Of a stretch of DNA of 64,000 bases, positions 38,418 through 41,532 are shown piece after piece. Under the pieces are notes generated by a model. It saw nothing but the letters and a program-made list of their open reading frames with translations, was not told where the DNA came from and ran no database searches. The stretch is from Halosaccharopolyspora lacisalsi (GTDB lineage Bacteria > Actinomycetota > Actinomycetes > Mycobacteriales > Pseudonocardiaceae), in contig NZ_JACGWZ010000001.1 of the NCBI RefSeq assembly GCF_014137975.1, positions 1,178,001 through 1,242,000 of the forward strand, read 5' to 3'. Each line of letters begins with the position of its first letter. Positions within the stretch are counted from its first letter, which is position 1. The position numbers and the translations under genes were made by a program.

Positions 38418-39695
38418 CTACGAGGGCTGAGGGTCTGGCCAGTTCACGGTGGTGGTGCGGTTGCTGTAGCTGTGCTTGAGTACTTCGAGGAACTGGTCGT
38501 GGGTGACGGGTCCGTCGAAGCCGGAGCCGATGTCGGTGACCTGGACGTGGCGCCGGTCCACTTCGGTCGCGCCGAGCACTGCCATGACGCAGTCGCGGCG
38601 TTGCCTGCTGGCGCGGATGCGCGTCCCCAGCGATCCCTCCACTTCCAGGCGTGGCCGCAGGCCGGCAGCGATGAGGGCGTCGACGAGTTCTTGGGCGGCA
38701 CGGTCCTGGTCGGGCCCAACCGGCATGACACATGCCTGCACCGGCGCCAGCCACAGCGGCAACCGGCCTTGGTAGCGCTCGAGCAGCGCAGCAACCACGC
38801 GTTCCATGGATCCGACGGTGCCACGGTGGATCATCAGGACCGCTTGTCGTGACCCGTCGGCGGCGTCGTAGGTGAGGCCGAAGCGTTCGGGCTGGTTGAA
38901 GTCGAGCTGCACAGTGGCAATGGTGTCGTCGTATCCATGCCCGTCACGAACCTGCAGGTCCAGTTTTGGCCCGTAGAAGGCCGCTTCACCGTCAACCTCG
39001 ACTAGGTTGAGCCCGCGACTGGGCAGCTCGACCGCGTGGGCGGCTTCGCGCAGCGCCTGTTCGGCGTGCTGCCATTGCTCGGTCTCGCCGAGAAAGGCCG
39101 GGCTGGTGTCTCGCCGTGACAGGCGCACGTAGTCGACCCGCAGCCCCAAGATCTCTTGGGCGCGCAGCGCCGACCGCAGCGCGCGGGCCGCCTCGTCTGC
39201 GACCTGGTCGAAGCGGCAGAACACGTGGGTGTCATCGAGGTTGATCTGACGCACTCGGCCGAGTCCGGCCAGGACACCGGAGCGCTCGGCGCGGAACATC
39301 GGAGCCAGCTCGTTGAACCGGATCGGCAACTCTCGGTAGGAGTGGCGCGAGGCGGCGTAGATGAGCGCGTGATGGGGGCAGTTCGCCGGTCGCAGCACGA
39401 GATCGTCGCCACCGACGCGCATTGGCGGGAACATGTCCTCGGCGAACTTGCCCCAGTGCCCTGAGCGTTCGAACAGGGACCGCTTGCCCAGAACCGGCGA
39501 GTGCACGCCCTGACATCCGTCTGCTTGAGCGATGTCCCGGGCGAGCCGTTCGAGCTCAGCACGGACCGCCGAGCCGTTCGGTAGCCAGAGCGGCAAGCCC
39601 GATCCGACCACCGGGTTGGTGGCGAAGATGTCCAGATGTTGGTTGAGGTCGCGGTGATCCGGTGCCGGTGCGACGTCGTGGTGGTCGTGGTTCAC
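38418..39695 (-). CDS. thrS: threonyl-tRNA synthetase, short form without editing domain
   Basis: Charges tRNA-Thr. From GTG 39695, with GAGGAG 6 nt upstream, about 425 residues: the class II catalytic core (LDIFATNPVVGSGLPLWLPN; the motif 2 region RFNELAPMFRAERSGVLAGL; RVRQINLDDTHVFC; motif 3 MIHRGTVGSMERVVAALLER). The anticodon-binding domain follows (WLAPVQACVMPVGPDQDRAA). The TGS and editing domains of a full ThrRS (about 650 residues) are absent, so this is probably a second, accessory copy. It may be regulated or resistant. Its leader contains an attenuator responsive to Thr codons. Confidence 0.9.
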   Translation of the reverse strand: MNHDHHDVAPAPDHRDLNQHLDIFATNPVVGSGLPLWLPNGSAVRAELERLARDIAQADGCQGVHSPVLGKRSLFERSGHWGKFAEDMFPPMRVGGDDLVLRPANCPHHALIYAASRHSYRELPIRFNELAPMFRAERSGVLAGLGRVRQINLDDTHVFCRFDQVADEAARALRSALRAQEILGLRVDYVRLSRRDTSPAFLGETEQWQHAEQALREAAHAVELPSRGLNLVEVDGEAAFYGPKLDLQVRDGHGYDDTIATVQLDFNQPERFGLTYDAADGSRQAVLMIHRGTVGSMERVVAALLERYQGRLPLWLAPVQACVMPVGPDQDRAAQELVDALIAAGLRPRLEVEGSLGTRIRASRQRRDCVMAVLGATEVDRRHVQVTDIGSGFDGPVTHDQFLEVLKHSYSNRTTTVNWPDPQPS

Positions 39696-39740
39696 GAAGG
39701 TCTCCTCGGTGGTAGGCCCCAGAGTCGTGAACCGAGGTAT

Positions 39741-39769
39741 GACAAAGCCCCGGAGCACAGCTCCGGGGC
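39741..39769 (-). terminator. attenuator terminator in the thrS leader
   Basis: 10-bp stem GCCCCGGAGC / GCTCCGGGGC (39760-39769 and 39747-39756) with a 3-nt loop, followed by TTTGTC, 46 nt before the thrS start. Its first arm can instead pair with the CTCCGG of the upstream hairpin. Confidence 0.78.
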
Positions 39770-39794
39770 CCAATGTCTACGTCAATGCGACTCG

Positions 39795-39842
39795 TCAGCG
39801 CCGGAGTGGTTCCGGCGTCGTCGTCTGCTGAACAAATCGCAT
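39795..39842 (-). CDS. thrS leader peptide MRFVQQTTTPEPLRR
   Basis: A 15-codon frame from ATG 39842 to TGA 39795, encoding three consecutive Thr codons (ACG ACG ACG, 39816-39824) directly before a hairpin. The hairpin CGCCGGA / TCCGGCG (39811-39817 with 39799-39805) overlaps its second half. TAGACT, a good -10 box, lies 6 nt before the ATG, so the transcript is probably leaderless, as known for actinomycete trp leader peptides. Stalling at the Thr codons would mask the first arm and free the second arm to block the terminator. Confidence 0.75.
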   Translation of the reverse strand: MRFVQQTTTPEPLRR

Positions 39843-39848
39843 ACAACT

Positions 39849-39854
39849 AGTCTA
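39849..39854 (-). promoter_or_regulatory. -10 box of the thrS leader transcript
   Basis: TAGACT on the minus strand, 6 nt upstream of the leader ATG. No clear -35 box is seen at the standard distance. Confidence 0.5.
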
Positions 39855-39914
39855 GAACACGCCTGCATGATGCTGGCGCCACCACGACCAACTCACCCCA
39901 ATACTCAAAACTCA

Positions 39915-40203
39915 GTAGCGCCGTCTGTCGTTCCGATGTTCCTTGAGCCCCGTCAGCCCGCCGCGCAGCGCGTCCTCGACGTCGACAGCGGTTCCCAGCG
40001 GCTCGTAGTCGACATCGATGTGCTCCAGCGCGTCCCGCGCAGGTTGGTCGGTCGCGGCGACGACGGCGACCGCCTCACCGACGAAGCGCGCCTCGTCGAC
40101 GGCGACCGGTAGGTGCTCCGGCAGCCTGATGTCCTCGGCGACCGGCCACGTGCACGGGATCCCGATCACTCGGTCGCGAGGTCGCGAGCGGTGAACACCC
40201 CTA
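39915..40203 (-). pseudogene. xanthine dehydrogenase/aldehyde oxidase large subunit, fragment
   Basis: Minus-strand GVFTARDLATE, then after a frameshift VIGIPCTWPVAEDIRLPEHL, PVAVDEARFVGEAVAVVAAT, QPARDALEHIDVDYEPLGTA, VDVEDAL. This is the a/b hammerhead domain at the N-terminus of molybdenum hydroxylase large subunits. Both sides are missing; its upstream edge meets the biotin carboxylase stop codon. Confidence 0.75.
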
Positions 40204-41532
40204 GCACAGCCCCTCGAGCCACCGCGTGTGAACCGCACCGGTCCGCAGCTCGGGCTCGTCGAGCAGACGTCGGTGTGTGGCAACCGTGCTGGGCACACCG
40301 TCCACGTGCAACTCGGACAGCGCCTGGCGCGCACGGGCCAGTGCGACATCGCGATCGGGTCCGAAGCAGATCAGCTTGGCGATCATCGAGTCGTAGAACG
40401 GGCTGATCCGGTCACCGGCGACGAACCCGGTATCCACCCTGACCCCGGGACCGCCGGGCAGGTCGAGCCGGGACAGGTTCCCGGGCGTGGGTTGGAAGTC
40501 GTTGTCCGGGTCCTCGGCGTTGATACGCAGCTCCACCGCCGCACCGTCGAGCGACACGTCGTCCTGGTCGAACGACAGCGGCAACCCCGCCGCGATGCGC
40601 AGCTGCTCGGCCACCAGGTCGACATCGGTGACGACCTCGCTGATCGGGTGCTCGACCTGGATGCGGGTGTTCATCTCGATGAAGAAGAACTCGCCGTCCG
40701 GCGTGAGCAGGAACTCGACCGTGCCAGCACCCACGTAGCCCACCTGGCGGGCCAACCGTACCGCCGCGTCGTTGATCCGTTGCCGCGTCTCCGGCGCCAA
40801 CCCCGGTGCTGGCGCCTCCTCGATGAGCTTCTGCCGCCGCCGCTGCACCGAGCAGTCCCGCTCGAACGTGTGCACCACGTTGCCGTGGCCGTCGGCCAGC
40901 ACCTGCACCTCGACGTGGCGGGCACCAACGATCGCACGCTCCAGGTAGATGCTGTCGTCGTTGAACGCCGACCGCGCCTCGGCCTGCGCGGCGGGCAGCA
41001 CCTCGGCCAGCTCCTCGGCGGTGTGGGCCGGGCGGATGCCCCGTCCGCCACCACCGGCGGCGGCCTTGAGCAGCACGGGAAAGCCCACGTCCTCGGCCGC
41101 CGCGACGGCCTCGTCCACGGTGGCCACAGGCGGACTGCCCGGAACGATCGGCACGTCGGCCCGTTCGGCGGCACCGCGCGCGGCCGCTTTGTCGCCCATC
41201 ATCTCGATCGTGGACACCGCGGGGCCGACGAAGGTCAGACCCGCGTCGCCGATCTCCTTGGCGAAGCCGGGACGTTCGGACAGGAAGCCGTAACCAGGGT
41301 GCACCGCGTCCGAACCGGTGCTCACGGCCGCCTCGACCAGTGCGGCGGAGTTCAGGTACGACTTCGCCGCCGCCGACTTGCCGATGTGCACCGCCGCGTC
41401 GGCCAACCGCACCCACTGCCCCTCGGCGTCCGCGTCGGAGTGGACCGCGACCGCCTCGATGCCCGCGGCGTGGGCCGCCCGGATGACCCGCACCGCGATC
41501 TCACCGCGGTTGGCTACCAGGACGCGTCGCAT
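40201..41532 (-). CDS. accC: biotin carboxylase subunit
   Basis: ATP-dependent carboxylation of the carrier-bound biotin. 443 residues with the full family layout: MRRVLVANRGEIAVRVIRAA, HPGYGFLSE, the ATP-grasp Gly-rich loop LKAAAGGGGRGI (about 155), HVEVQVLADGHGNVVHTFER, ERDCSVQRRRQKLIEEAPAP, and EMNTRIQVEHPISEVVTDVD. It overlaps the biotin carrier gene by ATGA and is the last gene of the pxpB-pxpC-carrier-accC operon. No acyl-CoA carboxyltransferase is near, so it serves the lactam/5-oxoproline enzyme of this operon. Confidence 0.93.
   Translation of the reverse strand: MRRVLVANRGEIAVRVIRAAHAAGIEAVAVHSDADAEGQWVRLADAAVHIGKSAAAKSYLNSAALVEAAVSTGSDAVHPGYGFLSERPGFAKEIGDAGLTFVGPAVSTIEMMGDKAAARGAAERADVPIVPGSPPVATVDEAVAAAEDVGFPVLLKAAAGGGGRGIRPAHTAEELAEVLPAAQAEARSAFNDDSIYLERAIVGARHVEVQVLADGHGNVVHTFERDCSVQRRRQKLIEEAPAPGLAPETRQRINDAAVRLARQVGYVGAGTVEFLLTPDGEFFFIEMNTRIQVEHPISEVVTDVDLVAEQLRIAAGLPLSFDQDDVSLDGAAVELRINAEDPDNDFQPTPGNLSRLDLPGGPGVRVDTGFVAGDRISPFYDSMIAKLICFGPDRDVALARARQALSELHVDGVPSTVATHRRLLDEPELRTGAVHTRWLEGLC

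Follow-up and report, generated by a model that had tools for sequence, protein, structure and literature searches.

A putative threonine-sensing transcription attenuator ahead of an auxiliary threonyl-tRNA synthetase gene in actinobacteria

Introduction

Among the described systems, the closest to the locus analysed here is the thrL-thrS pair of Streptomyces lividans TK24, in which a leader peptide gene, thrL (MKRVRPFLETTPGFVPAR), lies ahead of thrS and is transcribed as a leaderless RNA, as determined by RNA-seq (PMC8079986). This report from 2021 devotes a few lines to a single organism and includes neither alternative structures nor comparative support nor a codon split; its authors considered termination at thrL unclear, the terminator having no good U-run (PMC8079986). 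Ribosome-mediated attenuators had been predicted in 2005 for the trpS and leuS genes of Streptomyces (PMC1262725). These also act on aminoacyl-tRNA synthetase genes through short leader peptides, leaderless in S. lividans, and differ from the system described below in the amino acid (PMC1262725; PMC8079986). The same survey found no conserved RNA structures before the threonine operons of Actinobacteria (PMC1262725). In E. coli, the thr operon is preceded by a Thr-rich leader peptide and a terminator as well; however, that leader controls biosynthesis and contains eight ACC codons (PMC1183508).

The window, i.e., the whole stretch of DNA analysed, comprises 64,000 nucleotides from Halosaccharopolyspora lacisalsi, and all features discussed here lie on its minus strand. 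Like thrL, the leader in the window encodes a peptide with the TTP...VPAR pattern ahead of thrS on a presumably leaderless transcript, and it differs in having three Thr codons instead of two; the exact S. lividans peptide directly precedes a short threonyl-tRNA synthetase (ThrRS) gene in two Streptomyces genomes. A further parallel is offered by the polycysteine leaderless attenuators of mycobacteria (Canestrari 2020, cited in PMC13236596), in which a short ORF at the 5' end of a leaderless RNA, encoding repeats of a single amino acid, reportedly acts as an attenuator; they differ in sensing cysteine and in serving operonic genes. The first-pass annotation of the window regarded the use of such a device on thrS, and on an editing-domain-less copy, as apparently undescribed, a view that the S. 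lividans report overturns (PMC8079986). The window attenuator belongs to a known, thinly described kind, and its mechanism is ordinary. Reported here are the anatomy of the locus, its conservation, the covariation of its hairpin and terminator, its fold switching in silico, and a split in codon usage between the leader and the gene; the breadth of the family, the folding test, and the codon split are additions to the published thrL. A literature search conducted largely without subscription journals found no paper on these three subjects.

Anatomy of the leader

A -10 promoter box, TAGACT (39849..39854), ends 6 nt before the leader start codon ATG (39842-39840), and the transcript is predicted from the sequence to be leaderless, starting at this ATG. 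A promoter scan detected no sigma-70 promoter with a -35 box. The leader ORF (MRFVQQTTTPEPLRR; 39795..39842) consists of 15 codons followed by the stop codon TGA and includes three adjacent Thr control codons, ACG ACG ACG (39816..39824). The leader hairpin lies right after these codons. Its 5' arm, CGCCGGA (region 1; 39811..39817), pairs with TCCGGCG (39805-39799), which is part of region 2 (CTCCGGCG; 39799..39806), and region 2 also provides the 5' arm of the antiterminator. Region 3 (GCCCCGGAGC; 39760..39769) serves both as the 3' arm of the antiterminator and as the 5' arm of the terminator, whereas region 4 (GCTCCGGGGC; 39747..39756), followed by TTTGTC, forms the 3' arm of the terminator. 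The resulting G+C-rich terminator hairpin, GCCCCGGAGC-TGT-GCTCCGGGGC, spans 39769-39747, and CTCCGG in region 2 (39806-39801) is complementary to CCGGAG of the terminator. The peptide with its Thr codons, the promoter box, both hairpins, and this complementarity had all been proposed in the first-pass annotation, and direct reading of the minus strand agreed with it on every one of these elements. An outer helix that closes the leader hairpin, ATGCGA (39842-39837) with TCGCAT (39790-39785), was absent from that annotation.

The leader RNA of the window folds with -57.3 kcal/mol, compared with -33.7 kcal/mol for shuffled sequences (z -7.1; none of 200 shuffles reached this value). A clean U-tract is missing after the terminator (GGGGCTTTGTC), and for this reason a strict terminator scan requiring a T-run reported no terminator at the window leader. 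Few canonical terminators are predicted in Actinobacteria generally (PMC2965389).

The short threonyl-tRNA synthetase gene

The gene downstream of the leader (38418..39695) encodes a short ThrRS of 425 aa, composed of the class II core and the anticodon-binding domain. It starts with GTG at 39695-39693, well downstream of a mechanically called TTG at 39773, and is preceded by the Shine-Dalgarno sequence GAGGAG (39702..39707). The protein matches TIGR00418 above the cut-off (386.5 bits) only from profile position 171 on, and its Pfam domains are limited to PF00587 and PF03129, with neither TGS nor the editing domain; the synthetase is thus the short form without an editing domain that had been proposed. 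The housekeeping ThrRS encoded elsewhere in the same genome (679 aa) keeps the editing (tRNA_SAD) domain, and a full-length housekeeping ThrRS is found in 30 of 30 genomes. The simplest reading is that the short ThrRS is a backup enzyme made when Thr-tRNA is scarce.

Several further observations concern the synthetases and their surroundings. The solved structure nearest to the short ThrRS core is 1nyq, a threonyl-tRNA synthetase of 645 aa (321 bits, versus 204 for 1qf6); we take 1nyq to be the Staphylococcus aureus enzyme and 1qf6 that of E. coli. This nearest match hints that the spare ThrRS may be of Firmicutes-like origin. At four loci (L055, L166, L223, and L224), the short ThrRS carries an extra His/Asp-rich N-terminus (e.g., MHDRDHDHDHDHDHRR), possibly for metal binding or as a low-complexity expansion. 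One genome of the class encodes, besides the short enzyme, a second full-length ThrRS (G505:C6:207217-209154) with 52% identity to the housekeeping enzyme of the window genome, a possible resistance copy. Directly upstream of the attenuator, an ORF at 39912-40349 encodes a piece of the aldehyde oxidase/xanthine dehydrogenase a/b hammerhead domain (PF01315, below the cut-off); it is probably a gene remnant, and it adjoins a biotin carboxylase gene.

Conservation across actinobacteria

Searched against 150 same-family genomes, the short protein yielded 30 loci, and a TTTP leader lies ahead of the gene in all of them. Moreover, the leader is present in named genomes of Streptomyces, Kitasatospora, Nocardia, Actinocrispum, Amycolatopsis, Plantactinospora, Micromonospora, and Rhodococcus, and a class-wide search detected short thrS in 62 of 395 genomes, representing at least seven families. 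In total, a short ORF with the run of Thr codons precedes short thrS at 107 of 109 parsed loci, distributed over many actinobacterial families; because the architecture recurs to this extent, that of the window is not a product of chance. One of the two exceptions (L166) is cut off by a contig edge. At the other (L042, 2785-3000, Streptomyces sp. ms191), the terminator hairpin is kept and the leader ORF is gone; either the sensor has been lost naturally or the assembly has been rearranged. The promoter box is conserved as well: TANNNT is found within 16 nt of the leader start codon at 30 of 30 same-family loci, where it was not part of the search rule, and a few bases ahead of the start codon in all 107 leaders of the larger set, where it was.

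Alignment of the leaders revealed what the first-pass annotation had proposed to look for, namely conserved Thr codons (107 of 109 loci) and covarying stems (72 leaders). In particular, pairs of the leader hairpin are kept in 95.7% of cells over the 72 leaders, with changes on both sides in the outer helix, and the terminator helix, 94.8% paired, has 7 of its 10 pairs altered on both sides. The antiterminator pairs between regions 2 and 3 are nearly invariant; thus, covariation speaks neither for nor against this helix.

A covariance model of the leader found a single place in the window genome (E 9e-10; the next match had an E-value of 0.04). Five new matches were checked in a phylum sample; four of them (L184, L189, L190, and L192, from four further families) precede a short ThrRS, while the fifth (L191) looks like a chance match. 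A leader of this kind is absent from all of 30 housekeeping thrS genes. Rfam returned nothing relevant at either the relaxed or the gathering threshold, the window giving only sub-threshold matches to other families, and at the gathering score no match appeared in nine related loci. A T-box riboswitch was rejected, as neither the window nor the nine related loci matched the Rfam T-box.

Fold switching and the proposed mechanism

Co-transcriptional folding of 105 leaders was modelled on RNA that ends before region 4 has been synthesised; the ribosome was masked at various codons with a fixed footprint, and kinetics were ignored. Under these settings, the mean probability that region 2 pairs with region 3 was 0.12 without a ribosome; 0.91, 0.92, and 0.89 when the ribosome occupied Thr codons 1, 2, and 3, respectively; 0.64 when it stood on the codon after the third; and 0.00 at the stop codon. 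In the window leader, the corresponding probabilities were 0.0 without a ribosome, 1.0 at each of the three Thr codons and at the next codon, and 0.0 at the stop codon. The 1:2, 2:3, and 3:4 helices are mutually exclusive in this test, a ribosome stalled at the Thr codons masking region 1 and leaving region 2 free. In 92 of 107 leaders, the stop codon follows the last Thr codon at a spacing of exactly 7 codons.

Judged from sequence and modelled folding, the locus is very probably a classic ribosome-mediated transcription attenuator of the trp/his/leu type, which responds to charged tRNA-Thr and governs the auxiliary (backup) ThrRS. Comparative and folding evidence together support the original proposal of a Thr-responsive, leaderless attenuator on an editing-less thrS. 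Transcription would start at the leader ATG, and the ribosome would therefore load on the 5' end of the RNA. When the ACG-reading Thr-tRNA is scarce, the ribosome would stop on the ACG triplet and cover region 1, upon which region 2 would pair with region 3, the terminator would be blocked, and RNA polymerase would read into short thrS. When Thr-tRNA is plentiful, the ribosome would reach the stop codon and cover region 2, allowing regions 3 and 4 to form the terminator. In the absence of a ribosome, the 1:2 hairpin would form, so that termination would also be the default. Ribosome stalling and termination presumably take place in the cell in this manner, the physiological trigger being either threonine starvation or inhibition of the housekeeping enzyme.

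Threonine codons of the leader and of the gene

Thr codons of the 107 leaders are ACG in 307 of 321 cases (96, 104, and 107 leaders at the first, second, and third position, respectively). The gene that follows shows the opposite usage. Over 30 genomes, ACG accounts for 6 of 245 Thr codons in short thrS versus 205 of 924 in housekeeping thrS (Fisher p 2e-16). No comparable shift was found between the two genes for other amino acids. When cores of matched length are compared, ACG is used 3 times in 235 versus 108 in 479 Thr codons, and Thr content is 2.1% in the short versus 4.3% in the housekeeping enzyme, being lower in 30 of 30 genomes, whereas the numbers of Ser residues are unchanged (580 and 572). 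Between these cores, the difference in ACG usage persists with one genome per genus (p 3e-11). These tests count codons as independent though the genomes are related. In the window genome, 1 of the 15 Thr codons of short thrS is ACG, as against 53 of 141 for control genes (p 0.02).

Selective tRNA charging theory holds that the codons used for control are read by the tRNA that is first to lose its charge (PMC1183508). We infer that ACG is the sensitive codon in these leaders. Being Thr-poor and nearly free of ACG, short thrS should be translatable while the ACG-reading tRNA is uncharged.

Alternative readings

The leader could instead be translated into a small peptide with a function of its own, or into a sequence-specific arrest peptide, with the RNA stems being secondary. 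The peptide ending, TTTP(E/D)xxPAR, is indeed strongly conserved; however, this conservation tracks the RNA, since region 2 itself encodes the C-terminal residues, and the part ahead of TTT varies in sequence and in length (5 to 15 codons). Divergent families keep TTT and alter the tail (PGHPGVPR, PVFFRRPK, TTTTGAVPEV), and Thr is fixed at the level of the codon beyond what a peptide function would require, all of which leaves this reading with hardly any credence. Control confined to translation, in which the hairpins would sequester the Shine-Dalgarno sequence or the start codon without any termination, draws on the structures located between the terminator and the gene. In the window, a secondary and weaker helix with the 5' arm GGTTCACGA (39725..39733) and the 3' arm TCGTGAACC (39689-39697) would mask the start codon of thrS; taken by itself, the window helix is not significant (z -1.82, p 0.06). 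Most members possess an element, GTGGTCACTCGCC...GCGAGGAGACCAC, that covers the Shine-Dalgarno site. The region from the terminator to the gene start is more stably folded than its shuffled versions (mean z -1.63 over 103 leaders), the Shine-Dalgarno sequence is mostly hidden in silico, and the terminator has no clean U-run. Nevertheless, a strong, covarying hairpin of terminator type lies at a nearly constant spacing from the leader throughout almost the whole family, the switch between regions 2 and 3 acts on this very hairpin, and access to the Shine-Dalgarno sequence is predicted to increase in the antiterminated state in only 9 of 103 leaders; translation alone is thus a very improbable site of control. 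The Shine-Dalgarno/start-codon hairpin may add a weaker second lock to the attenuator. It is conceivable, though rather doubtful, that control is dual, the terminator loop (GGCGAGTG) pairing with downstream CACTCGCC and freeing the Shine-Dalgarno sequence only in read-through RNA, which would supplement attenuation and not replace it. The loop is complementary to the 5' half of the GTGGTCACTCGCC...GCGAGGAGACCAC element with compensating changes (e.g., GGCGGGTG/CACCCGCT, GGCAGGTG/CACCTGCC, and GGCGAGCG/CGCTCGCC); the Watson-Crick matches observed were reached by only 1 of 20,000 permutations, relatedness not being removed, and the pairing has a mean z of -2.1 over 104 leaders. The choice of register matters in this test, the motif GG[TCG]C alone giving a weak signal and flanking similarity a clearer one. 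Against dual control stand the low number of leaders in which thermodynamic folding produces the switch in access and the pairing in the window itself, which is not significant (p 0.24).

Another alternative leaves the attenuation mechanism as it is and concerns its purpose only. In Streptomyces, an auxiliary TrpRS is a resistant spare enzyme that is induced when the housekeeping enzyme is inhibited. By analogy, the switch might serve mainly in antibiotic resistance: a ThrRS inhibitor such as borrelidin or obafluorin would block the housekeeping enzyme, Thr-tRNA would fall, and a resistant spare would be induced. The architecture is the same as that of the Streptomyces trpS leaders, and all 30 genomes possess a full-length housekeeping ThrRS as well. 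In E. coli ThrRS, replacement of G463 by Ser or Ala confers resistance to obafluorin and borrelidin (PMC11252418). However, Gly is kept at the corresponding position in 12 of 12 aligned short enzymes, including that of the window (FYGPK), and resistance as the main purpose appears unlikely, though the short enzyme may be resistant by some other mechanism. A second ThrRS of the obafluorin-resistant ObaO type was likewise considered and rejected, as the aligned short enzymes have neither Ser nor Ala at this site.

Implications

Attenuation at the level of transcription, the preferred reading, combines with the codon split into a broader proposition, the chances of which we regard as even: the leader would sense with ACG, and the backup synthetase would have lost its ACG codons and half of its Thr, which would allow a rescue enzyme to be made just when the ACG-reading tRNA is uncharged, while the Shine-Dalgarno site may be opened, in read-through RNA only, by pairing of the loop with downstream sequence. 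The same attenuator would also lead to induction of the spare enzyme by ThrRS inhibitors. What had been a few lines of annotation in one Streptomyces expands into a regulatory family widespread in actinobacteria, its target defined as an editing-less spare ThrRS. Moreover, with ACG as the sensor codon, an effector gene nearly free of ACG, and a housekeeping synthetase in the same genome as a control, the family provides a clean natural setting in which to test selective tRNA charging beyond E. coli.
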